Assembly (NCBI GenBank): GCA_029860345.1
Contig: JAOUBJ010000013.1
Span: 1-64,000, forward strand
Length of the DNA stretch: 64,000 nt
Reading direction: 5' to 3'
Origin: Candidatus Zixiibacteriota bacterium
Lineage (GTDB): Bacteria > Zixibacteria > MSB-5A5 > GN15 > FEB-12
Below the pieces are notes generated by a model. The model did no database searches. It worked only from the letters and a program-made list of their open reading frames with translations, and was not told the DNA's origin. Positions 40,190-61,094 of the stretch are shown here, piece after piece. The translations under genes were made by a program, and so were the position numbers. Each line of letters starts with the position of its first letter. The first letter of the stretch is position 1.

Positions 40190-42193
40190 CTACGGACAAG
40201 CTCCCGGCGCCGGGCCTTGGTTGAACATGAAGTCTACCAGGAAGACAAGATCGGCTATGTCCACAGGTTCGGCACCACTGGAATCGATGTCGGCTTCGTC
40301 GAAGCACAGCGGTTCCGGGCCACCTGAGAACATGAAGTCAACCAGGTAGACCAGGTCGGAAATGTCCAGCCCGCCGGAGTGGTCGACATCACCGCGCAGA
40401 ACACAGCATCCGCTGCCGATAGTGAAGGTTCCCTCCGAATAGTCGGTGGAATCGTAAGGCAAATTCGGATCCTGGCGAAACGCTTTCACCCGCCAGTGAT
40501 GTTGGACGTCGATGGCGAAGAGTGATTTCGGCAGTGTGATTGAGTTGTCATCGGTTTCATTGTCGACCAGCAGTTGGACAAAACTCGGGTTGTCGGCAAT
40601 CTCGATTCGATAGAAATCGGACTCAGAGTCCCAGCATGTCGACCAGGTAAAAGTGACTGAGTTGGCCCGAGCCTTTGGGCTCGAACCGCCGGGCGGGCTG
40701 ATAAGTCGCGGCGGCAAAAACGGAATCTCCCAACTGGCTCCGTAAACATTCTGACCGGTGGTTAATCCAAAGGGTTCTTCCGGGCCAGTACCGGTCCAGA
40801 CAGCATGGGCCTGTTTACTGGAAATGCTGAGACCAATATACTCGGCCAGTTTCCCCGCGCGGGATTTGGTCATCGGCGTGTTGAGCACGTTGCCGGTTCC
40901 CCCGACCGTATATGGTGGGGGATCGGCCAGGTCGGGATCAATCCAGTTTTCTGATATTCGATGATTGGTTGTAAAAGTCACACCACCGTCGAATGAGTAG
41001 GCAGCGAAGACCATGAACCAAAAATGACTGTTTTCATCAATGCGTTGATCGTACCAGATCGCTGCCAGTGTGCCGTCGAGTTCGTCGCAGCTTAGCCAGG
41101 GATGGAACTGGTCTACCGTCGCGCTGTCACCGGTGTAGTCATCATTGATGTATATGGGTGTGCTCCAACTTGCGCCGCCGTCCAGCGACCGGATGAACTC
41201 GATGTTGTAATCAGAGTCGATAAATTCGGTGTTGGAAGTGTCCAGATTGGCATAAGCGATATAGATGTTCCCATCGAAAGGACCCCCGGAAATGTCCGCC
41301 GCTGCTGTGGGCGCGTTGTAGACATCGATGCCCCCATCGACAGACCCCCAATTTCCATAGGTTCTTCGAATAGGTGTTGGCGAAGTGAACGATGCTCCGC
41401 CGTTGGTGGACTTTACAAAATCCAGGCCGTATCCTATGGTACATGTAGGAGCTCCGTCAAGATAAGTTCCGGCCCAGAACACATAAACGGACCCGTCCGA
41501 ACCTACCAGCGGGAAAGCAAACTGACCTGCGCCGATGTCCGGCCAGCCACAGGCGCTTGCATCTCGACGCGGGCCGATTACCAGCGTGTCATCCCAGGTC
41601 ACTGCTCCCGCAGTGGAGCGGGCAAACATAATCTGACCTTCAGGACCGCCATCATAGAAGCGTTTCCAGGCGACATAGATATTGCCGGAATGTGAGCCAC
41701 CGGTGCGGTCGACGGCCGTAAACTGCTTATCTTCAAAGAACGGACCGATGGTGTCCTTGACAGTATGGGGGCCAGACCATGATACACCGCTATCATTTGA
41801 TACATGCCAGGCAAGGAAGCAGGAATCATATCCCCAATAGTCCTGGTAATCAACAACGCACAGATAGAAAGTGCCGTTCGCATCAACCGTTAAGGTCGGG
41901 TCTGACTGCCAGTCAAATATCTGATTGGCTGGATTGATCAATGTGTCGCCGGTCCAGTTAAGTCCGCCATCGTTACTGCGACCGATCCCCACTTGTCGAT
42001 AACCCTGTCTAAAATCTCGCCAGCATGCAACCAGAATATCGGGAGCTGTCGGGCTAACCCATATCTGCTCTTCGTTCTGAACATCCCACCAGTTGGAAAT
42101 AGTAATCTGTGTGGGAACGGGTACCGGGTCCGCATGTGAGGCACTTGAGGAAATCAAGAACGTAACGAATAGAAGTGAACACAGCTTAGTCAT
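40190..42193 (-). CDS. Secreted BNR/sialidase-like propeller protein with dockerin-like tail
   Basis: A 667-residue exported protein: signal peptide MTKLCSLLFVTFLISSSASHA, then a sialidase-like beta-propeller with five Asp-box motifs of the S.D.G..W type (SNDGGLNW, SNDSGVSW, STNGGASF, SLDGGASW, SFDGGVTF). A fibronectin-like region follows (about 500-590). It ends in a doubled dockerin-like tail (CCVLRGDVDHSGGLDISD... to ..PAPGACP, last 72 residues). No catalytic Arg triad or Tyr could be assigned, so enzymatic sialidase activity is unproven. An ATG three codons upstream is an alternative start. The neighbouring gene carries the same kind of tail. Confidence 0.8.
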   Translation of the reverse strand: MTKLCSLLFVTFLISSSASHADPVPVPTQITISNWWDVQNEEQIWVSPTAPDILVACWRDFRQGYRQVGIGRSNDGGLNWTGDTLINPANQIFDWQSDPTLTVDANGTFYLCVVDYQDYWGYDSCFLAWHVSNDSGVSWSGPHTVKDTIGPFFEDKQFTAVDRTGGSHSGNIYVAWKRFYDGGPEGQIMFARSTAGAVTWDDTLVIGPRRDASACGWPDIGAGQFAFPLVGSDGSVYVFWAGTYLDGAPTCTIGYGLDFVKSTNGGASFTSPTPIRRTYGNWGSVDGGIDVYNAPTAAADISGGPFDGNIYIAYANLDTSNTEFIDSDYNIEFIRSLDGGASWSTPIYINDDYTGDSATVDQFHPWLSCDELDGTLAAIWYDQRIDENSHFWFMVFAAYSFDGGVTFTTNHRISENWIDPDLADPPPYTVGGTGNVLNTPMTKSRAGKLAEYIGLSISSKQAHAVWTGTGPEEPFGLTTGQNVYGASWEIPFLPPRLISPPGGSSPKARANSVTFTWSTCWDSESDFYRIEIADNPSFVQLLVDNETDDNSITLPKSLFAIDVQHHWRVKAFRQDPNLPYDSTDYSEGTFTIGSGCCVLRGDVDHSGGLDISDLVYLVDFMFSGGPEPLCFDEADIDSSGAEPVDIADLVFLVDFMFNQGPAPGACP

Positions 42194-42341
42194 CTTCGAC
42201 ATCTCCCGGTATCCGGTGGTAATGTGGCAAAGCCTACATCAGACTTCGGTATATATGCGAGCATGGATTGTACCTACCAATATAGTCTCATAAGCGCAAC
42301 AAAGTCAATTGTATTCGTGCCCGGCCTGTGCCGCTACAAGA

Positions 42342-45300
42342 CTACGGACAGGCTGACGGCTCCGGGCCGCCGACGAACATGAAATCGATCAAGTATAACA
42401 AATCGGAAATGTCAATCGGTGGCGTACCACTAGCGTCGACATCGCCTTCGTCAAAGCAAACCGGCTCCGGTCCGCCCTGGAACATGAAATCGATTATATA
42501 CGTCAAATCGGAAATGTCCAAAATCTCACCGCCGTCGTGGTTGATGTCCCCACGTTTGACGCAACAGGGACCGTCCGTTGAAACGGCAATTGCAAAGGGT
42601 GAAAGAGTTGTTGTCGATCCGCAAATGATATTTGAGTCGGCGTCCAGAGATGTAGTAATGTCCCACCATTCGCCCGCTTCGTAATGCTGAAGAGTAAGAG
42701 CAGCTTCTTCGGCAGGAGTCAGACCAGCGTCGTCGTAGTTGATGCATATCTCGATAGCTCCGCTGAAATCAGCATCGGTGGTGACACCGTAGTAACCGGG
42801 CAGGTCCGATGGTATTATTTGAAAATTGTTGCCGGCCGCGGGTCCTTCAGCGCCGTAGGTAACTTCCGTGTTACCGCCAACATCAACGTTGTCGAAAGTA
42901 AGCTCAACCCCTGCACCCGGATTCGTGATCACTCCAGGTCCGGGCGGTGTCTCTTGGACAAACTGGCAGGCATCCCCGACACCATCGCTATCTGAATCAG
43001 TCTGATCAGAGTTAGAGGTCAGCGCACAGTTGTCGCACGGGTCACCGTGACCGTCAGAGTCGTAGTCGCTCGCAACCAAACACTCCTTGGTCCATTGAGC
43101 AATATAGGGTGTTGCCTTCTCGCCCGCGGACAGGAAGGTGCCGCCAACAAAAAGGCTATTGTCATAGGGAGTGATTGCATTAACCGATGCATTCCAGTCC
43201 ACGCCACTGTTCATGCCGGAGCCCAGATTGGACCAGTCAACTCCGTCCCACGACGCGATTCTGTAAATCGAAGAGTCACCAATTTTACCATATCTTCCAC
43301 CCACGAATAATTTATCGTTGTAGACAGACAGACTGAAGACAGGGTTGTCAGCACCCGGATCAAAAACCGTCCAGTCAGCTCCATCCCAGGAGGCAACTCG
43401 ATAGGCGGTAATATCATTAACAATCGTGAACGATCCCCCGGCTATTAGTTCGTCATTGTAGACGGTCAACGCACTCACTCTGCCATATTTCATACCTAAT
43501 CCAAGGGGTGCCCAATTGAGGCCGTCCCATGAAGCAATACTTTTCGTGGTGACAGTTCCGGCGTTACTAAAGAATCCTCCAGCGATTAACTTGCCGTCAT
43601 AGGATGTAAGTGAGTACACACCGGCTGATCCACCTCCCACACCGTCCGGGAACAATCCGAGAGGTCGCCACATCGCACCGTTCCATGAGGCGATATTAGA
43701 TGCCCCGAAAGAACCGGCACTGGTAAACTGCCCACCTGCAATCAGCTCGTTGTTCCAGACTGTAAGTGCATATACAGTGCCATTCATTCCAATACCCAGA
43801 GTTGACCAGACTGCTCCGTCCCAGACGGCGATTCGCCTTGCAGATACTGCACCCGCTTGTGCGAATTCGCCGCCGACTATCAACTTGTTGTCGTAGATAG
43901 TCAAGGCGTGGACACCGTCTTCTATACCGTTGCCCGTTAATCCTGAACCGAGTGCAGTCCAGACCGATCCATCCCAGGCAGCTATAAGATTGGCCGGGAC
44001 TCCGTGCCCAACACTTTTGAACACTCCACCTACTATCAGCTTGTTGTCAAAAATGATCATCGCATTAATGCCGGTAGTTTTGGTACTCCCCATACCAGGC
44101 GAGACCTGCGACCAATTTGCTCCGTCCCAAACAGCAATATGCATGGTCGGGATATGATCATCAGATGATTTGAAATTACCAGCCACATACAACTGAGTAT
44201 CCACCACCATCATTGTCTGAACATAGCTTTGATTGGGTCCCACTCCATCGCCCATCGGTGACCAACTCAAACCATCCCAGACGGCAGTACGATGAGCCTC
44301 ATCTCCACCGGCTTCATCAAAGTATCCACCCGCAATAAGCTGCCCATCGAATTCAGCCAGACTATATACAGTGTAGTTCATCCCCACTCCCAGGGCTGAC
44401 CAGGCCGCGCCATTCCAAGAGGCGACTCTCATTGCAGGATTTCCACCGGCCATATCAAAGTTTCCTCCAACGATCAGATTGCCGTCGAAAACCGTCACGG
44501 CACTCACGTCATCATTGACACCCGTTCCGATCGGCGCCCATGAAGTCCCATTCCATGCAGCAACGCGCGATGCGGTAAGGCCACCGGCAGTTGTAAAGCT
44601 CCCGCCAACAACCAGCTTGTTGTCATAGATAGTAAGTCCGTAGGCTTCATTGTTCAGACCTGATCCCAGGGAAGACCACGTAGAGCCATCCCAGCGAGCA
44701 ATGTGGCTGGGTGAGCCGAATTCTCCGGCTGCATATATTGTGTCGTTATGATTTAGAATGGTATGGATACTACCATCTAAACCGGTCCCCAACGGCGCCC
44801 AGGTGGCGCCATCCCATGAAGCGATGTTGTTTACGGCAACTCCGTCGATTTCGAAAAACCCGCCCGCAACTATCAGTTTGCCATCTAAGATTGCGAACTC
44901 GGACACGCCGCCATCAATCTCAGTGCAGAGTGCAGACCAGTTGGCTCCGTCCCAGGTGGCGATACCGGGGGCTATAACAGAGCCGGCCACACCAAAACTG
45001 CCACCAACAACAAGCTCCCCATCATAGATCGTCATAGCCGAGATGGGGGAGTCCGTCCCCGGTATGGAAGAAATCCCGTCGGCCCAGTAGATATCATCGG
45101 GGTCGGTATCAATACCCGATGGACTCATCATGAGTTGGTTGGTGGCCGGGTCAAGATTCACGTCAAGACCCTCAATGTCCAAAGAGCCTTGATACCCTGA
45201 ACGTCTCGCCGCGTCCAGATCGAAACTTCCGTCGGGGTTCACAAACTCCTGGGCCTTTTTGTTAACCGGTAGCGTTTGGTCGGCACTCACAGATGTGAAA

Positions 45301-45371
45301 CATATAGTGAGCGTACAGGAAAGTATTAGCAACGATTTGACGAGGCGGCAGGATACTGAATTGTGTGACAT
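42342..45371 (-). CDS. Large secreted repeat protein with TSP3 and dockerin-like tail
   Basis: A 1009-residue exported protein. Start ATG 45371 has GGAG five bases upstream; earlier in-frame starts lack it and precede the signal peptide. After the signal peptide (to about 30) come about 13 tandem units of 45-52 residues with the pattern (I/V)ASWDG..W..LG.G......L...D..L(I/V)(V/A)GG.F..AG, which should form one or two beta-propellers. Thrombospondin type 3-like calcium repeats follow (DYDSDGHGDPCDNC, DSDSDGVGDACQ), then a short beta domain and a doubled dockerin-like tail ending PEPSACP. It is probably a cell-surface or secreted adhesin-like protein. Confidence 0.85.
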   Translation of the reverse strand: MSHNSVSCRLVKSLLILSCTLTICFTSVSADQTLPVNKKAQEFVNPDGSFDLDAARRSGYQGSLDIEGLDVNLDPATNQLMMSPSGIDTDPDDIYWADGISSIPGTDSPISAMTIYDGELVVGGSFGVAGSVIAPGIATWDGANWSALCTEIDGGVSEFAILDGKLIVAGGFFEIDGVAVNNIASWDGATWAPLGTGLDGSIHTILNHNDTIYAAGEFGSPSHIARWDGSTWSSLGSGLNNEAYGLTIYDNKLVVGGSFTTAGGLTASRVAAWNGTSWAPIGTGVNDDVSAVTVFDGNLIVGGNFDMAGGNPAMRVASWNGAAWSALGVGMNYTVYSLAEFDGQLIAGGYFDEAGGDEAHRTAVWDGLSWSPMGDGVGPNQSYVQTMMVVDTQLYVAGNFKSSDDHIPTMHIAVWDGANWSQVSPGMGSTKTTGINAMIIFDNKLIVGGVFKSVGHGVPANLIAAWDGSVWTALGSGLTGNGIEDGVHALTIYDNKLIVGGEFAQAGAVSARRIAVWDGAVWSTLGIGMNGTVYALTVWNNELIAGGQFTSAGSFGASNIASWNGAMWRPLGLFPDGVGGGSAGVYSLTSYDGKLIAGGFFSNAGTVTTKSIASWDGLNWAPLGLGMKYGRVSALTVYNDELIAGGSFTIVNDITAYRVASWDGADWTVFDPGADNPVFSLSVYNDKLFVGGRYGKIGDSSIYRIASWDGVDWSNLGSGMNSGVDWNASVNAITPYDNSLFVGGTFLSAGEKATPYIAQWTKECLVASDYDSDGHGDPCDNCALTSNSDQTDSDSDGVGDACQFVQETPPGPGVITNPGAGVELTFDNVDVGGNTEVTYGAEGPAAGNNFQIIPSDLPGYYGVTTDADFSGAIEICINYDDAGLTPAEEAALTLQHYEAGEWWDITTSLDADSNIICGSTTTLSPFAIAVSTDGPCCVKRGDINHDGGEILDISDLTYIIDFMFQGGPEPVCFDEGDVDASGTPPIDISDLLYLIDFMFVGGPEPSACP

Positions 45372-45535
45372 AGGTGCTCCGAATGAAAGTCTTGGCAGTA
45401 ACAAGGACTGATTACGACGAGTTAGGCGATACGTTGGAAATATAACGTCCAGCCGCTGTTTAGGCAAATCGAAATGCATACGCTTATTGTCGGCATGGCT
45501 GGGTTTGGCCCAAAGATTTGTTTGGACATAATCTG

Positions 45536-45566
45536 TTGACAAAGCGTCTTTGGGCATGTTTATTAT
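45536..45566 (+). promoter_or_regulatory. Promoter of the small beta-barrel gene
   Basis: TTGACA at 45536-45541 and TATTAT at 45561-45566 with a 19-bp spacing; an overlapping TTATTA gives 18. It lies about 90 bp before the barrel gene, in the 283-bp gap between two divergent genes, which is otherwise unique sequence. Confidence 0.55.
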
Positions 45567-45654: not shown

Positions 45655-46299
45655 ATGAAACTCTGGTCAATTCTACTAATGCTGATTCTGCTTTTGACGA
45701 TCAATTCGACCCTGCTCGCACAGGATGAAGACGAAGCTCGCGACCTTCTGGAGATTTGTGTTTATGGCGGAGTGGGTTCCCCTATGGGCAACTTGAGTGA
45801 CTGGCATGACAGTCTTGGCGCCAAACTGGGCTGGTCGCTTGGAGTGGACTTCGGCTACTTTATGATGCCGAGTTTAGTAGTCGGATTCAATTTCCAGTAC
45901 ACTCAGTTCGGGATCGACGGCCCGGCCGAGGTCGATGGTGCTCACCATCGTCTGTATAACCCGAATCTGTTTGCCAAGTACTACTTCTCGGGCGAATCTG
46001 ATTTTGAACCGTACATCAAAGGCCATGTAGGTATTGAGAACCCGAAGTTCACCACCCTGCTGACCGGTCCCAAGTACCGTTCTGTCTCATACGACGCTTC
46101 GTTGGCCGCCGGTTTCGGAGTCGGGCTCTTCTATTATCGCACTGATTACAGCGGACTTTTCATCGAAGCCAACTACAACTATGCCGCCACCAAAGATGCT
46201 CAGCGAGTGTATGCGGAAGAGACGCTCGATTTCGTTGAGGACATCAGCGTGTTTGACATCCATGCCGGGGTCCGTCTGCTGATCGGATCAGGGGAGTAG
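45655..46299 (+). CDS. Small outer-membrane beta-barrel protein
   Basis: A 214-residue protein with a signal peptide (to about 23, ..NSTLLAQ) and alternating amphipathic strands typical of 8-stranded barrels of the OmpA/OmpW-like class (LEICVYGGVGSPMGNLSDW..., LGVDFGYFMMPSLVVGFNFQYTQF, ..VFDIHAGVRLLIG). The protein ends in beta-structure rather than in a terminal aromatic residue. It stands alone with its own promoter and a strong terminator, and its function beyond the outer-membrane location is unknown. Confidence 0.82.
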   Translation: MKLWSILLMLILLLTINSTLLAQDEDEARDLLEICVYGGVGSPMGNLSDWHDSLGAKLGWSLGVDFGYFMMPSLVVGFNFQYTQFGIDGPAEVDGAHHRLYNPNLFAKYYFSGESDFEPYIKGHVGIENPKFTTLLTGPKYRSVSYDASLAAGFGVGLFYYRTDYSGLFIEANYNYAATKDAQRVYAEETLDFVEDISVFDIHAGVRLLIGSGE

Positions 46300-46319
46300 A
46301 CCAAGACAAATCTTTATGG

Positions 46320-46348
46320 CCCGCCGACTGATCGGCGGGTTTTTTTTT
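46320..46348 (+). terminator. Intrinsic terminator of the barrel gene
   Basis: CCCGCCGA (46320-46327), loop CTGA, TCGGCGGG (46332-46339), then nine T residues (46340-46348). This is one of the clearest terminators in the window. Confidence 0.95.
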
Positions 46349-46551: not shown

Positions 46552-47904
46552 ATGGCCAAGACGAGACTGATGGTGGTCGACGATGAGTCCGCCCAGCGAG
46601 AACTGCTGGCCGGGTATCTGTCGAAGAACGGCTTTGAAGTGCACACTTTCGCCTCGGGCCGGGAAGCGCTCGAAGGGTATCATCACATATTCTCACCCTT
46701 GGCTATAGTCGACATGAAAATGCCCGGAATGAGCGGCTTGGATTTATTGGAGGGGCTGCGAGAGATCAATCCCTTTATCCAGGTTCTGGTGCTGACCGCC
46801 TTTGGGTCGGTCGAGACGGCCGTGGCCGCGATCAAAACCGGCGCCTTCGACTATCTCACCAAGCCGATCGAAAACCTGGATGAACTGCTTTTGAAGCTGA
46901 ACAAAGCAGCGCAGCAAAACCGCCTCGTCGTTGAACACCAGGTTATGAGCGCCCGACTGGATGAGGTCTTCCCCAGTTCGGAGATAATTGGCGAGTCGCC
47001 ACCGATAGTCAAGATGAAAGAGTTGATCTCACTGGTGGGACCAAAAGAAGCAACAGTGTTGATCACCGGTCCGTCCGGCACGGGCAAGGAGTTAGTCGCG
47101 CGGGCCATCCATGCCTTGTCGCCCCGCTCCGAACAGGAGTTGGTAGCCATCAACTGCGCCGCCTTTCCTGAGACACTTCTGGAATCGGAATTGTTCGGTT
47201 TTGAGAAAGGAGCTTTCACCGGCGCCGATCGAGCCAAACAGGGCCGCTTCGAACTGGCCAACGGTGGCAGTTTGTTTCTCGATGAAATAGGGGAGATGCC
47301 GTTGACCATGCAGGTCAAGATGCTGCGCGTACTGGAAGAGAGAAAAATCCAGAGGTTGGGATCGGTCAAGGAGATATCTCTCGATATCCGATTGATCGCA
47401 GCCACCAACCGCGACCTGATGAAACTGGTGGCTGACGGCAGCTTCCGTGAAGACCTGTTCTACCGGTTGAACGTCATTATGATTGAAGTACCGCCGCTGG
47501 CCGCCCGGGCCGGGGATATCCTCAGGTTGACTGAAAAGTTCCTCGAACGATTCTGCCGCAAGATAGGCAAGGAGATCAGTGGTGTCGAGCCTGATGCGGC
47601 CGAGTTGCTTTCAAAGTATAACTGGCCGGGCAATGTTCGAGAACTGGAGAACATCATCGAGCGGGCGGTCGTACTGTGCCGCAGCGACCGAATCGGCAAA
47701 GACGATCTGACCGGCCTGGCACCGGCGGCCGCTCCGATTGGAGTCGAAGCGAGCCTGACTCCGCTATCAGAGATGGAGTCGAAACACATTAAGACCTGTC
47801 TCGACCAACTGGACTGGAATCTGGGACAGTGCGCCGAGAAACTGGGCATTCACCGCAACACCCTTCGAGCCAAAATCAAAGAATACAACTTGTCCAGGGA
47901 CTGA
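46552..47904 (+). CDS. Sigma54-dependent response regulator (NtrC family)
   Basis: A 450-residue activator with three domains. The receiver (about 4-118) has the phosphoacceptor Asp54 in AIVDMKMPG and KP at about 104. The AAA+ domain (about 143-380) has Walker A GPSGTGKE, Walker B GGSLFLDEIGE and the sigma54-contact loop GAFTGA at 220-225. The Fis-type HTH (about 400-448) contains CAEKLGIHRNTLRAKI. All motifs are intact, so it should activate -24/-12 promoters. No kinase gene is adjacent. A palindrome and a -24/-12 element lie immediately downstream, pointing to the next gene as a target. Confidence 0.95.
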   Translation: MAKTRLMVVDDESAQRELLAGYLSKNGFEVHTFASGREALEGYHHIFSPLAIVDMKMPGMSGLDLLEGLREINPFIQVLVLTAFGSVETAVAAIKTGAFDYLTKPIENLDELLLKLNKAAQQNRLVVEHQVMSARLDEVFPSSEIIGESPPIVKMKELISLVGPKEATVLITGPSGTGKELVARAIHALSPRSEQELVAINCAAFPETLLESELFGFEKGAFTGADRAKQGRFELANGGSLFLDEIGEMPLTMQVKMLRVLEERKIQRLGSVKEISLDIRLIAATNRDLMKLVADGSFREDLFYRLNVIMIEVPPLAARAGDILRLTEKFLERFCRKIGKEISGVEPDAAELLSKYNWPGNVRELENIIERAVVLCRSDRIGKDDLTGLAPAAAPIGVEASLTPLSEMESKHIKTCLDQLDWNLGQCAEKLGIHRNTLRAKIKEYNLSRD

Positions 47905-47947
47905 TCTGCCTGGGTCTGACAATTGTTGTGCATAGCGAGTATGAGTA

Positions 47948-47964
47948 CGCACAATATTTGTGCG
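47948..47964 (+). promoter_or_regulatory. Palindromic activator site (putative UAS)
   Basis: CGCACAA-TAT-TTGTGCG is a perfect 17-bp palindrome, with an extra half-site TTGTGC at 47926-47931. It sits 66 bp upstream of the -24 element and just after the NtrC-type gene, the usual place and symmetry for a Fis-HTH dimer binding site. Confidence 0.6.
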
Positions 47965-48029
47965 CGGAGGCCGGGTCTGATTCGTAGTCCATCAACCTAT
48001 TACCCTGCAACACAATGGATTATGCAGTT

Positions 48030-48045
48030 TGGCATGCTTCTTGTT
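48030..48045 (+). promoter_or_regulatory. Sigma54 (-24/-12) promoter
   Basis: TGGCATG-CTTC-TTGTT matches the consensus TGGCACG-N4-TTGCW at all but two of the defined positions, with correct spacing between the GG and TG elements. Transcription would start near 48055, about 30 bp before the lipoprotein start. The weak point is T instead of C in the -12 GC. Confidence 0.65.
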
Positions 48046-48084
48046 AGAGTTAATACCGGAACGAATGAGACAAGGAGAATGAAA

Positions 48085-48963
48085 ATGTACTCGAAATCAC
48101 TTTTGACCCTGATGATCGCACTGATCGCGACCGTTCTGACCACCGGATGCTCTGATGATGAAGTTATTGCCGTTTATGATCCGGTGCCACAACCTCCGCA
48201 AAACGTCTTTACAGTAACCGGCGATGTTTCGGTCTCTGTTTTTTGGACCGCTCCCTACGAAGGGGACATTACCTTTTATGGTATCTACCGCTCCGCCCAG
48301 GAGTTCACCGGCTACGATGTGATCGCGACCATCTCAGCGGAACCAAACCCGGACCGCGACCTGGTGTACTACGACCCCGGTTACATCGACACCGATGTAA
48401 CCAACGGAGAGACTTATTTCTACGCGGTCACTTCAATTGACAGAGCCGGGCATGAGTCCGAATTATCAGCGGAGTCGGCATTTGATACTCCACGGCCCGA
48501 TGGTGAAATGACTCTCTATGACGATGCCATTGATTCTGATCGATCCGGTTTTGACTTTTCGACCGGGACTAGAGTCGCATCTGAGAATCCAGAAGCCGAT
48601 GTCTACCTTGATCGCGATCTCAATAATGTGTTCTACATCAACTCCACCGATGCGAATAACGTACTGGTTCAGGCGGCCGGATTTCATTCGAGTTTCGATG
48701 GTGTCGGCTGGGCGCCTCAGGATGGCTGGTCTTATACCGGCTGGGCCGAGATCGTCCCCGGACATATTTACATTGTGGCTATCAAGTATGCTCCCGACCA
48801 GTGGAACTACGCCAAGCTGCGGGTGCTGACAGAGAACGACAATGCCGGTACCGTCAGGTTCCAATGGGCTTTTCAGACTGATATAAATAATCCCGAACTG
48901 GCGCCGCCCTCGGATGCGAATATAGATACTCGCAGCCGCGTTGACGCCGGTTCAACGTTATAG
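48085..48963 (+). CDS. Lipoprotein with fibronectin type III-like domain
   Basis: A 292-residue lipoprotein: signal peptide MYSKSLLTLMIALIATVLTTGC with a lipobox ending in the cysteine at about 22. An Fn3-like domain (about 37-130; PPQNVFTVTGDVSVSVFWTAP...TYFYAVTSIDRAGHESELS) is followed by a C-terminal beta domain of about 150 residues that I do not recognise. ATG 48085 is chosen since AAGGAG at 48072-48077 is seven bases away; ATG 48079 would be too close. It is the first gene behind the -24/-12 promoter. Confidence 0.78.
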   Translation: MYSKSLLTLMIALIATVLTTGCSDDEVIAVYDPVPQPPQNVFTVTGDVSVSVFWTAPYEGDITFYGIYRSAQEFTGYDVIATISAEPNPDRDLVYYDPGYIDTDVTNGETYFYAVTSIDRAGHESELSAESAFDTPRPDGEMTLYDDAIDSDRSGFDFSTGTRVASENPEADVYLDRDLNNVFYINSTDANNVLVQAAGFHSSFDGVGWAPQDGWSYTGWAEIVPGHIYIVAIKYAPDQWNYAKLRVLTENDNAGTVRFQWAFQTDINNPELAPPSDANIDTRSRVDAGSTL

Positions 48964-49000: not shown

Positions 49001-50602
49001 ATGTTGAAAAAGACAATCATAACACCGGCTGTGGCGCTCCTGATGTGCCTGATGATCACCGGCGTGGCTTTTGGCCAGAATATGCAGCGGGACGAGAACG
49101 GCGGCCCCGATTATTTCCCGCCCGATAAGCAGGCCGCTAATCAGGACTATGGTGAAGACATCCGTATCGACCGTTATCTTGATGCCGAAGTCTGGACCAA
49201 CCATCTGGACGGCGAGTATTTCGTCGGCGACAATGTTGTCCTGAACTTTCGGACCAACCGCGATGCCTTTGTGGCCATCTACTCGGTCGATAGCAGGGGG
49301 CGCGTCAACCTGCTTTTCCCGACCGAGCCGGAGCAGGACAATTTCATTAACGGCGGCGTAACCTACCATCTACCGGGTCCTAATGACGACTATGATTTGG
49401 TGGTAGCGGAGCCTGAGGGAATCGAGAATATTCAGATCATCGCGTCGCGCGAACGGTTTCCCATTCCCGATTGGCATCCTGTCTCCGGATTGCTTTGCGA
49501 CTGGGATGATCGCTTTGAGTTCATGGACTATCTCAACGGCCGGCATTTCGTCCGGTATGGTGGTCAGAAATTTGCATTCGACCGCACCGCCATGTACGTC
49601 AACGAATGGGAACCGTCCTATTATCGCCCGGTTTATTATCCTTACTATCCTTCGTGGTCGGTATGCGGTAACGGCTATATCGATTATCCCTGGGGCGCCT
49701 CAATCTATGTTGACGGCATCTACTGGGGTTGTGCGCCGCTGTACATTCCACGGATCTATGTCGGTTGGCACACTATCACCGTATATAATCACTGGGGACA
49801 TTGCTGGGAACGTGACGTACACTTCACACGCTACCACACGGTCATTCTGGACCGCACGATAATCAATCCCGGTCGTACCAACGTGTCCAAGTACAAGGAT
49901 GTCAGGAGTGCCGGCTACCGCGATCCGGTGACCAACGGCTATCCCAAGTTCAAGCAGAAACAAACTGTGGCCACCAAGGTATCCGGTGTGAAATCCAAAA
50001 CCTCACCGAGCGACAAGATGAAGTCCAAAGTTCAGACTGTTCCTACCAAGAAGTATGCGCGCGGCAGCGCCAAGCTGATTTCCACCGATCGTGGCCTGGA
50101 GAGTGCCGGCCGAACTGTCAACCGCGGCAAGCGCAGTAGCGGCATGCGGAGCAAGCCGACCGACAGACTGACCACAACTTCATCCGGGACCAAAGGGAAG
50201 CAATCAAACGGCCAAGGGTCCGACAGCCGGATTTCGGGATCGACATCAGGTAGCGTAGGCTCCGGCGGCAAGCGGTCTTCCAACAAAGGCCGGGTGGGAC
50301 AACGTCAGACTCAGCAGCAGTCGAAGGACTACTACAAGAAGAAGTCCGGTTCCAAAACGCGAAGGTCGGGCGGGGATGCCGGTCGTGTCCAACCGAAACG
50401 GAGCGGCGGCAAGTCTGATTCCAAGGGCACCAAGCCCAGTGTGAAGCCTCGCTCGCAACCTACCAAGAGTCGCGGTGGCACCAAGTCGCAGGGCGTGAAA
50501 CAGTCCGGCGGCACAAAGAGCGCTCCCAAGTCGACGCCCTCATCGGGCGGCAGCAAGACAAAGAGCTCCGGCGGCAAGACCAAAAAGGGAGGACGTAAGT
50601 GA
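49001..50602 (+). CDS. Exported DUF4384/PEGA-like protein with basic low-complexity tail
   Basis: A 533-residue exported protein. After the signal peptide (to about 26, ..ITGVAFG) comes a DUF4384-type domain (about 50-150; VWTNHLDGEYFVGDNVVLNFRT, with AFVAIYSVDSRGRVNLLFP), an aromatic linker (YYRPVYYPYYPSW), a PEGA-like beta domain (about 225-285; GASIYVDGIYWGCAPLYIP) and a tail of about 240 residues rich in Lys, Ser, Gly, Thr and Arg. The tail is probably disordered and polycationic, suited to bind acidic polymers such as LPS, exopolysaccharide or DNA. It starts 37 bp after the lipoprotein gene, likely in one operon. Confidence 0.75.
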   Translation: MLKKTIITPAVALLMCLMITGVAFGQNMQRDENGGPDYFPPDKQAANQDYGEDIRIDRYLDAEVWTNHLDGEYFVGDNVVLNFRTNRDAFVAIYSVDSRGRVNLLFPTEPEQDNFINGGVTYHLPGPNDDYDLVVAEPEGIENIQIIASRERFPIPDWHPVSGLLCDWDDRFEFMDYLNGRHFVRYGGQKFAFDRTAMYVNEWEPSYYRPVYYPYYPSWSVCGNGYIDYPWGASIYVDGIYWGCAPLYIPRIYVGWHTITVYNHWGHCWERDVHFTRYHTVILDRTIINPGRTNVSKYKDVRSAGYRDPVTNGYPKFKQKQTVATKVSGVKSKTSPSDKMKSKVQTVPTKKYARGSAKLISTDRGLESAGRTVNRGKRSSGMRSKPTDRLTTTSSGTKGKQSNGQGSDSRISGSTSGSVGSGGKRSSNKGRVGQRQTQQQSKDYYKKKSGSKTRRSGGDAGRVQPKRSGGKSDSKGTKPSVKPRSQPTKSRGGTKSQGVKQSGGTKSAPKSTPSSGGSKTKSSGGKTKKGGRK

Positions 50603-50747: not shown

Positions 50748-51059
50748 ATGAAACATCTCTTATACATACTTTTGAGCCTGGCTCTGCTGGTCTCGTTTTG
50801 CGGCGACACTTATGCCGTGAACAAGAAAGACAAGAAAGCCACCTCCACACAGAAGGTCGTCAAAAAGTCCAAGCCGGCGCCGAAGAAGCCAGCGGTCAAA
50901 AGCAACAAGCAGGTGAAACCACCGCCCAAGGGCAAGCGCAAGAAGTATGACAATTTCATAGACAAGAACAACAACGGCATCGATGATCGCAAAGAGAAGT
51001 TAGTACCCAAGGCCGGTAAGCAGGACAAGAAGAAGCCGACCAAGAAGAAGAAAAAGTAA
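50748..51059 (+). CDS. Small Lys-rich exported protein with a calcium-loop-like motif
   Basis: A 103-residue protein with a signal peptide (to about 23, ..CGDTYA) and a lysine/proline-rich body. Its only ordered-looking element is DNFIDKNNNGIDDRKE (about 66-81), which resembles the DxNxNG calcium loops of EF-hand, dockerin or TSP3 repeats. GGAG lies upstream of ATG 50748. It follows the basic-tailed DUF4384 protein and precedes a terminator, so it closes this exported-protein unit. Function unknown. Confidence 0.7.
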   Translation: MKHLLYILLSLALLVSFCGDTYAVNKKDKKATSTQKVVKKSKPAPKKPAVKSNKQVKPPPKGKRKKYDNFIDKNNNGIDDRKEKLVPKAGKQDKKKPTKKKKK

Positions 51060-51084: not shown

Positions 51085-51115
51085 AAGCCACGCCCGCTAT
51101 GGGTAGTGGCTTTTT
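51085..51115 (+). terminator. Intrinsic terminator after the Lys-rich protein
   Basis: AAGCCAC (51085-51091) pairs with GTGGCTT (51106-51112), with an inner CCC/GGG extension, followed by TTTTTC. It lies 25 bp after the stop codon. Confidence 0.8.
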
Positions 51116-51653
51116 CTATGGGTGGTGATAAATCATTTTCTTGCTCTTGGCGGTGATAAATCACTTCTTCGCGCTTCGCGCGGTGGCAACCTCATCCTGA
51201 GCGGAGTCGAAGGGTGAATACGCACCGCTGATTCCCGCCCCAAACAAGGTTTGAGGCGGCCACCCAAACGAGGCCTGGATTCTGGCCTTCGCCAGAATGA
51301 CGGAGGTGGGCTGTCCGGCAGTCTGCTTTGTGTTACAGAACGGTGTTGCCACCGTTCCGCTGGGTCTCACCCGCCTTCGGCGAGAAGGACCCAGCGCAAC
51401 TGCTACACCCTAGGCGGAGTCGAAGGGTGAATACGCACCGCTGATTCCCGCCCCAAACAAGGTTTGAGGCGGCCACCCGACCGAGGACTGGATTCTGGCC
51501 TTCGCCAGAATGACGGAGGTGGGCTGTCCGGCAGTCCGCTTTGTGTTGGCTGAGCCTTCAGACTCGGCGATAGCTTAAACCGCTTGCGCCTTCCCTCGCG
51601 ATCTGAAGACCACGCGCGCGCTAGAACAGCTTTGAAAAACAGCCCATTTGCTC
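51116..51653. repeat. Gene-free stretch with a 213-bp-spaced duplication
   Basis: A block of about 135 bp starting GCGGAGTCGAAGGGTGAATAC at 51201 recurs from 51414, ending with GCTTTGTGTT in both (about 51337 and 51547). Each copy holds CCCCAAACAAGGTTTGAGGCGGCCACCC and the TTCTGGC-CTTC-GCCAGAA hairpin. Upstream are two GGTGATAAATCA hairpin units near 51124 and 51152. Nothing here is a gene. Confidence 0.75.
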
Positions 51654-59193: not shown

Positions 59194-59246
59194 TCGGGCT
59201 TCTGATTCATCTTAATCTCGCCTTGGCCGATAAACGGCTTAGGACA

Positions 59247-61094
59247 ATGAAAAAGAAATCTCACAAATTCGAGTCGGAAGTCCACCTCGGATTGCTGGCC
59301 ATTATTCTGGTCCTGCTGGTTTTGAACGCCGGTTCGAACTATGTCTCCTACCATGCCCGAGTTGCCGAGCATGACAGGGTTGAAGGACGGCTCAACGATG
59401 CGGCGCTGATAATCAGTCGGCGGCTGGAGAGTTTTGGCCGCCCACAATTGACCAAGGAGCAACAACTCAAGCTAAGGCGTGAACAGAGTCTCAGCCGATT
59501 GGTCTATCTGCCGGTAACGCCGGCTCTGAGTCGACCGAGCGTAGACAGCGCCTGGTTGTCCACTCTCAAGCCGTTGCAGAGCGGCTTAGGTGATGTCGTT
59601 CAATACTTGGACGGGGCAGAGTTTAGACGGATTGTCCGGGGTGACAAGGATGAGTATTTATTGCTGTATCCCATGCCGGGACGGGTCGGCCACGGGCTGT
59701 TGGTGGTGGCCCGGCGGGCGCCGCTCCTGGCCTATCTGGACACGGCCGGTCGCACTATGGTTGCGGTGGGGATCGTGGCCGCTCTGTTGGTACTGGCCGT
59801 TTATGTCATGTTGTCACGATTCGTCTTATCACCGTTCCGGCGTATCCGGCAGGAGGCGCTCCAGGCCGGACGGGTGGTCGATGACGGTGCCGATGAAGTC
59901 GAGGCAATGGTGGCTGACTATCGACGCATCATCGAAGAACTGAAAGCCCAGGAAGCACAGCTCAGAAGATTAAATCAGGAGACACAACAACGAGCCGATT
60001 CCATCCAACAGTTCAACGAACATCTTTTGAGCTCTATCGATTCCGGGATAATCACGGTGGACCAACGGGGGATAGTCAAATCGATCAATGCCGCCGCCCT
60101 GGATATCCTCGATGTTTCGTCCGAAGAATACCAGGGTAAACATTACTGGGAGCTCCTCGGCTCCAACGTGCACCTGGTCGATGCCGTCAGTCGTGTCCTT
60201 GACTGCGGCAAAAACCAAGCCTATCGCGAAACCGAGTTCAGCCGACCGGCCAAATCGGTGCTGGCGCTCGGTGTTACCATTTCGGTGATCCACGACCGCA
60301 TGGGACAACCGCTGGGGGCATCGCTCCTGATCAATAATCTTACCGAACTGGCTGCCCTCAGGCGGCAACTGGAGGCCAAGGGGAGGTTGGCGGCTCTGGG
60401 TGAAATGGCCGGAGGGTTGGCCCACCAGGTACGCAATTCGCTGGGCGCCATTGCCGGTTATGGCAACCTCGTGAAAAAGAAACTTTCCAACCTGAGTCTG
60501 CCTGTTGAACATGCGACCGCCCTGGTGCAGGAAACCCGTGAGGCGGAATCGTTGATCGAACGATTCCTATACTTTGCCCGACCACTCAACTTCCAACCCG
60601 ACCGGCTGGACGTCGTCGATCTCATTAAAGAACTGCTGGCCGGGTTCCGAGTACGCGCCGACTGCGCCTCGATCACCTTTGTTGACAAGACCAAAGGAGT
60701 GGTTGCGGTGGATTCCGACGGGTTGTTGTTGAAACAGGCCTTGACCAACCTGATAGAGAACGGCGTCAATGCTCACCACTCAGGCTGCGGTACTGTAACC
60801 GTAGAGTGCCGGGAGACAAACGACGAGGTTCAAATAGAAATCTCCGACACCGGATGCGGGCTTGACTCCGAGACGACCGCGAACATGTTCACCCCGTTTT
60901 TCTCGACCCGACCGTCCGGGAGCGGGCTGGGGCTTCCTCTGGTCAAAAAGATCATCGATCTGCACGGCGGCCGGTTGTCCCATCGGTCAGAACCCGGGAT
61001 CGGTACCACTTTCACGATAGGTCTGGCGCGACGCTTGCCGGAGCTTGGATCGGCATCCACCAGCGGCGTTGGCACGACAGTTTTAGGGTCTTGA
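59247..61094 (+). CDS. PAS-containing sensor histidine kinase (NtrB/PilS-like)
   Basis: A 615-residue membrane kinase. Two membrane segments (about 12-34 and 170-193) frame an extracytoplasmic sensor; a HAMP-like linker, a PAS domain (about 255-370; SSIDSGIITVDQRGIVKSINAAA) and the kinase core follow. The phosphoacceptor is His393 in LAHQVRNSLGAIAGY. The N box (NLIENGVNAH) and G boxes (DTGCGL, GSGLGLPL) are intact. This resembles NtrB/ZraS kinases that drive NtrC-type regulators. No response regulator is adjacent; the nearest is the orphan at 46.5 kb. ATG 59247 is chosen over an upstream TTG. Confidence 0.92.
   Translation: MKKKSHKFESEVHLGLLAIILVLLVLNAGSNYVSYHARVAEHDRVEGRLNDAALIISRRLESFGRPQLTKEQQLKLRREQSLSRLVYLPVTPALSRPSVDSAWLSTLKPLQSGLGDVVQYLDGAEFRRIVRGDKDEYLLLYPMPGRVGHGLLVVARRAPLLAYLDTAGRTMVAVGIVAALLVLAVYVMLSRFVLSPFRRIRQEALQAGRVVDDGADEVEAMVADYRRIIEELKAQEAQLRRLNQETQQRADSIQQFNEHLLSSIDSGIITVDQRGIVKSINAAALDILDVSSEEYQGKHYWELLGSNVHLVDAVSRVLDCGKNQAYRETEFSRPAKSVLALGVTISVIHDRMGQPLGASLLINNLTELAALRRQLEAKGRLAALGEMAGGLAHQVRNSLGAIAGYGNLVKKKLSNLSLPVEHATALVQETREAESLIERFLYFARPLNFQPDRLDVVDLIKELLAGFRVRADCASITFVDKTKGVVAVDSDGLLLKQALTNLIENGVNAHHSGCGTVTVECRETNDEVQIEISDTGCGLDSETTANMFTPFFSTRPSGSGLGLPLVKKIIDLHGGRLSHRSEPGIGTTFTIGLARRLPELGSASTSGVGTTVLGS

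Follow-up and report, generated by a model that had tools for sequence, protein, structure and literature searches.

Behind the gene of an NtrC-type response regulator of a Candidatus Zixiibacteriota bacterium lie a palindrome, a -24/-12 promoter and several genes for exported proteins, which raises the question whether these parts constitute a sigma54-dependent switch dedicated to the genes downstream. An earlier note on this stretch of DNA (64,000 nucleotides of contig JAOUBJ010000013.1, positions 1 to 64,000, here called the window) had proposed that they form a complete two-component, sigma54-controlled envelope unit with the palindrome as its enhancer. We followed this proposal up by analysing the window, the whole genome and the genomes of relatives, in which gene content, sites, spacing, conservation and the presence of rpoN can be read directly from the sequence.

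The regulator and the genes that follow it

The regulator is encoded on the forward strand at 46552–47904. Pfam searches assign to it a receiver domain (PF00072, 3e-25) with the phosphorylatable D54 in the motif IVDMKMPG, a sigma54-interaction AAA domain (PF00158, 1.8e-70) with GAFTGA and the Walker A and B motifs GPSGTGKE and LFLDEIGE, and a Fis-type helix-turn-helix (HTH_8, PF02954, 3.9e-11). All parts of an intact GAFTGA activator are thus present, as the earlier note had stated. Judged by these domains together with the presence of rpoN, the protein is a group I NtrC-type enhancer-binding protein, for which DNA binding and ATP-dependent activation are predicted. The rpoN gene itself was found at C8 (E 6.9e-57) and encodes a normal RpoN box, ARRTVTKYR; hence, the absence of rpoN, which the note had named as an argument against its own reading, does not apply to this genome.

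The REC-AAA(GAFTGA)-HTH_8 layout is shared with regulators of the NtrC, AtoC and ZraR type, which are also the best NCBIfam models for the protein, and the nearest solved chain of the NtrC family is 4l4u. However, the regulator falls far short of all equivalog cut-offs (for AtoC, 438 vs 714 bits) and differs from these group I regulators in having its own palindrome, GCACA-N5-TGTGC, no adjacent kinase and an uncharacterised exported-protein unit as its proposed target. Most genomes of the order contain one clear orthologue with 53–84% identity, the next paralogues reaching 48% at most. HRNTL, the recognition helix, does not vary among the about 40 orthologues examined and differs in ten paralogues from the same genome. 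At least ten further REC-AAA-HTH_8 regulators are encoded in this genome, four of them also orphans, which makes five orphans including the regulator studied here.

The genes downstream, all on the forward strand, correspond to those listed in the earlier note. The lipoprotein at 48085–48963, whose start codon may be the ATG at 48079 or at 48085, is conserved in relatives and possesses the lipobox LTTGC, an FN3 domain (profile match to the Fn3-like 3mpc, 7e-06) and a C-terminal domain weakly resembling HmuY. Membership in the HmuY haem-binding lipoproteins (PF14064) was rejected, with a best E-value of 0.0014 that falls short of the family cut-off, weak matches in eight of 12 C-terminal domains and a probability of 4% when hhalign was run against true HmuY; a single-sequence AlphaFold2 model of the lipoprotein was discarded because of its mean pLDDT of 33.5. 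There follows a conserved exported protein with a DUF4384 and a PEGA domain (49001–50602; PF14326 1.9e-22, PF08308 7.6e-05) and a tail rich in Ser, Lys, Arg and Gly, for which a PDB search with the DUF4384 family returned low-complexity matches only. The exported Lys-rich peptide at 50748–51059 is, in an alignment of 19 orthologues, variable and charged apart from an invariant FxDxNxNGxDDRxE core, which by its sequence may represent something like a calcium loop. A terminator hairpin at 51085–51112 (fold of -16.6 kcal/mol) closes the unit. Before hrcA begins, near-identical direct repeats are found at 51200–51570 in the gap that follows the unit (e.g. CGGAGTCGAAGGGTGAATACGCACCGCTGATTCCCGCCCCAAACAAGGTTTGAGGCGG, which occurs twice).

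Upstream of the regulator, a putative outer-membrane beta-barrel protein (OMP_b-brl, weak Pfam match PF13505 at 7.5e-06) is encoded on the forward strand at 45655–46299. It lies outside the sigma54 unit, an intrinsic terminator with a 10-bp stem and a T run (46318–46341, forward strand, -18.4 kcal/mol) being located between both genes, and nearly all relatives have its orthologue immediately before the regulator. Beside it, the minus strand encodes at 40190–45557 two large exported proteins whose C-termini are dockerin-like (beta-propeller, BNR repeats). Dockerin-like repeats point to Candidatus Zixiibacteriota as the probable affiliation, and the nearest named relative, at 66% identity, carries the label Calditrichaeota. 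The order of outer-membrane protein, regulator, lipoprotein, DUF4384/PEGA protein and, usually, Lys-rich peptide is kept in about 30 genomes from several families and is mostly followed by hrcA-grpE.

Probable tandem enhancer sites and the -24/-12 promoter

The main palindrome, GCACA-N5-TGTGC (GCACAATATTTGTGC), is located on the forward strand at 47949–47963 and is contained in the exact dyad CGCACAA-TAT-TTGTGCG with its 7-bp arms (CGCACAATATTTGTGCG, 47948–47964), which we could confirm. The same holds for the sigma54 promoter TGGCATG-N4-TTGTT at 48030–48045 on the forward strand (TGGCATGCTTCTTGTT, N4 being CTTC), from which transcription would be expected to start at about 48056. In the 64-kb window this promoter is the sole match within one mismatch of TGGCAYRN4TTGCW, and -24/-12-like matches are fewer in the window than the shuffled expectation (17 vs 26). 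A degenerate enhancer-like site (TGACAATTGTTGTGC, 47917–47931, forward strand), which does not appear in the earlier note, precedes the main palindrome by 32 bp. In 30 orthologous promoters such a second site is found 31 or 32 bp upstream of the main one, and its right half, GTGC, is almost invariant. Classical NtrC enhancers consist of tandem sites about three turns apart at about 100 bp from the transcription start, and the locus resembles the NtrC, AtoC and ZraR type in that tandem sites with a separation of about three helical turns precede a -24/-12 promoter.

A genome search for the palindrome, as the earlier note had advised, gave a divided answer. Taken alone, the palindrome, like the -24/-12 element, is not beyond chance, as copies with up to two mismatches are found 130 times in the genome compared to 105 times for the reversed control, but its combination with GGCAN6TTG after 50–80 bp is unique, with one match in the 4.76-Mb genome and none for the control. 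Another exact copy of the palindrome (C1:140049) was dismissed, since no -24/-12 element is present at the right distance. A relaxed composite search with three mismatches resulted in nine matches vs five in controls, of which only the known site is convincing, statements on a regulon in this genome being based on such pattern searches.

In the relatives, the region behind the regulator orthologues yielded 39 promoters with GCACA-N5-TGTGC or GAACA-N5-TGTGC followed by GGCA-N6-TTG, of which the 85-bp case of G038 is doubtful. Measured from the start of the palindrome, the -24 box follows at 81 bp in 20 and at 80 bp in 14 of these promoters (34 of 39), at 79, 82 and 85 bp in one each, and at 71 bp, one helical turn shorter, in two, counts that describe a peak inside the range of 68–85 bp admitted by the scan. 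Outside the motifs, the spacers of the aligned family promoters show no conservation. All 39 promoters carry GG at -25/-24, which the scan required, at a fixed spacing to the -12 element, and GGC and TTG are nearly invariant. The canonical GC at -13/-12 is absent; the window has GT, and the -12 base is A or T in 37 of the 39. In this class of promoters the -12 element (48042–48045 and the 39 orthologous promoters) is nearly always TTGW rather than TTGC, and in the other promoters bearing the dyad described below the -12 base is T in 27, A in 26 and C in 12.

The exact composite pattern is present in 30 of 61 genomes, the control giving 0 in all, and nearly all matches fall either in the interval from regulator to lipoprotein or, at contig ends, in front of the lipoprotein. 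When 610 kb from relatives were scanned with a weight matrix, the composite was likewise recovered at the expected places only, with no stray sites, and enhancers and promoter keep their place within the gene order in about 30 relatives. Orthologous promoters do not count as independent samples, and the weight of these counts rests on their spread over genera and families, on the rigidity of the spacing and on the control patterns. At the level of sequence, the switch is nearly unchanged across dozens of genera of this uncultured lineage, for which our literature search found nothing on sigma54 control; DUF4384 was met in papers in passing only. No clear composite was detected behind the regulator by pattern and weight-matrix scans in the families f2 and f3; in f2, regulator and outer-membrane protein are kept and the lipoprotein is not found behind the regulator. 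In two of these f2 genomes, and once more in G035, the composite precedes other genes for exported proteins, namely proteins read from their sequence as beta-barrel-like (L199, L219) and an exported protein (L220), so that the set of targets appears to change and yet to stay exported.

The proximity of palindrome and regulator is in itself no proof that one binds the other, and with at least ten similar regulators in the genome the palindrome might serve another activator or a repressor, the adjoining regulator controlling something else. We consider this very improbable, because the site adjoins the regulator in most members of two families, the recognition helix and the palindrome are conserved together, and tandem sites with a phasing of 31 or 32 bp and jumps of one helical turn are what is expected of an enhancer. 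That the adjoining regulator acts on this promoter, in a sigma54 switch dedicated to the exported-protein unit, is by contrast highly probable from the sequence comparisons.

A 25-bp dyad shared by sigma54 promoters

Alignment of 29 family promoters on the -24 box revealed further conserved columns, which form a 25-bp dyad, TAAC-N3-TTG-N5-CAA-N3-GTTA. In the window it reads TAA-N4-TTG-N5-CAA-N4-TTA (TATTACCCTGCAACACAATGGATTA) and occupies 47998–48022 on the forward strand, 7 bp before the -24 box. This element, too, had escaped the earlier note, and the promoter is more complex than described there, as it combines a tandem enhancer with an extra dyad common to unrelated sigma54 promoters. The dyad is found with at least nine of 12 letters in 30 of the 39 spacers compared to a mean of 1.4 in shuffles, and 35 of the 39 spacers have their best match in one register.

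A search for the dyad together with TGGCA-N6-TTG gave 158 matches in the 61 genomes vs 12 for the reversed pattern, and about 49 vs 11 in 52 genomes that stand further away within the class (all counts summed). The extra matches precede hsp20, clpB, dnaK, TolC-like and HlyD-like genes, examples of which were confirmed with Pfam, and the enhancer repeats of those promoters, compared by eye, differ, with TGCCA/TGGCA before hsp20 and AATATT before TolC genes. Among these promoters the symmetry extends to letters that the search left free (T/A at positions 10/14, R/Y at 6/18). An orthologous lipoprotein promoter near the efp/kinase cluster of relatives is likewise of the sigma54 type with the dyad about 10 bp further upstream, and single other promoters carry it 10 or 20 bp further upstream. 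Among promoter-like sites of other phyla (863 kb), 0 of 196 possess the dyad at these registers. As it occurs in promoters with other enhancers and at none of these sites from other phyla, the dyad accompanies sigma54 promoters throughout the lineage and is no site of the regulator itself; the regulator was ruled out as the dyad-binding protein on account of those other enhancers. Small heat-shock genes, clpB and, in family f2, dnaK were observed with sigma54-type promoters, and such promoters with TGCCA/TGGCA repeats upstream of hsp20 suggest that a sigma54-dependent heat-shock response may exist.

Two readings come into question for the dyad. It may be a bending site of the IHF/HU type, in which case the promoter would follow the usual enhancer-IHF-sigma54 layout with a site of unusual regularity; to this we assign a considerable but clearly less than even chance. 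IHF is already known between enhancer and promoter (PMC7962754, PMC3897727), as in Desulfovibrio orp (PMC3897727); the dyad likewise lies between the enhancer and the -24 box, where IHF acts, and each half of it holds CAAN4TTA, the core of the IHF consensus WATCARNNNNTTR quoted in PMC7962754. The site in the window, CATCAACCTATTA, agrees with it in 12 of 13 letters, and across relatives the consensus is enriched but not exact, being present within one mismatch in 18 of the 39 spacers vs 5 in shuffles, mostly at the two dyad halves. However, the element that is conserved is the symmetric dyad with its excess over shuffles, A rather than T precedes CAA in most sites, and the promoter-like sites of other phyla lack the dyad at that register. 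Unlike the IHF-assisted promoters, those described here share one fixed register (some being displaced by 10 or 20 bp) although their enhancers differ. We also consider, at only a little under even odds, a dimeric global factor other than IHF that would bind the dyad at many sigma54 promoters, whichever activator serves them, and that envelope and heat-shock genes alike would need as a third component. The dyad would suit a symmetric DNABII dimer as well as some other dimeric protein.

Possible signal input and the proposed circuit

All the elements that the earlier note listed were recovered, but its designation of the unit as a complete two-component system is not supported, since no kinase gene adjoins the regulator at the locus. 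A candidate partner is encoded 11 kb away on the forward strand at 59223–61094, between a prepilin peptidase and efp, and is by Pfam a membrane histidine kinase with a PAS domain, an orphan like the regulator, with one orthologue in 56 of the 61 genomes; in none of 11 neighbourhoods of this orthologue that were read does a regulator lie beside it. Whether it pairs with the regulator we regard as about an even question. In most family members each occurs as a single orphan within one shared neighbourhood, and their best NCBIfam models are the cognates AtoS and AtoC, though both proteins score far below the cut-offs. It is nearly an even prospect, too, that this kinase serves another orphan regulator while an unlinked kinase drives the one studied here: five orphans of this type are present in the genome, and in G033 and G023 the genes of kinase and regulator are not linked.

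That an envelope unit is under sigma54 control here, the palindrome being its enhancer, is on the other hand well backed by footprinting in relatives, by the rigidity of the spacing, by rpoN and by a recognition helix conserved together with the palindrome. From these data we infer that a sensor kinase, possibly that at 59223–61094, would phosphorylate the regulator at D54, dimers of which would bind the two phased sites at 47917–47931 and 47949–47963, assemble an AAA ring, loop over about 100 bp and open the sigma54 polymerase at 48030–48045. A further dimeric factor, common to many sigma54 promoters of the lineage, might aid looping or polymerase recruitment from the dyad at 47998–48022. The lipoprotein, the DUF4384/PEGA protein and the Lys-rich peptide would then be produced and probably remodel the outer surface.

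The uncultured lineage thereby gains a well-defined circuit of one regulator, one palindrome and one target unit, which lends itself to reconstruction and testing in a laboratory host. The common dyad suggests a third component of sigma54 transcription in this lineage, which would widen the textbook picture of an activator and a sigma54 polymerase. In having lipoprotein, outer-membrane and other exported targets, the locus agrees with the control that sigma54 exerts on the bacterial exterior (Francke et al. 2011, PMC3162934); it differs in that the roles of the products are uncharacterised here and that the same promoter class also serves hsp20, clpB and dnaK, which points to sigma54-dependent heat-shock genes.
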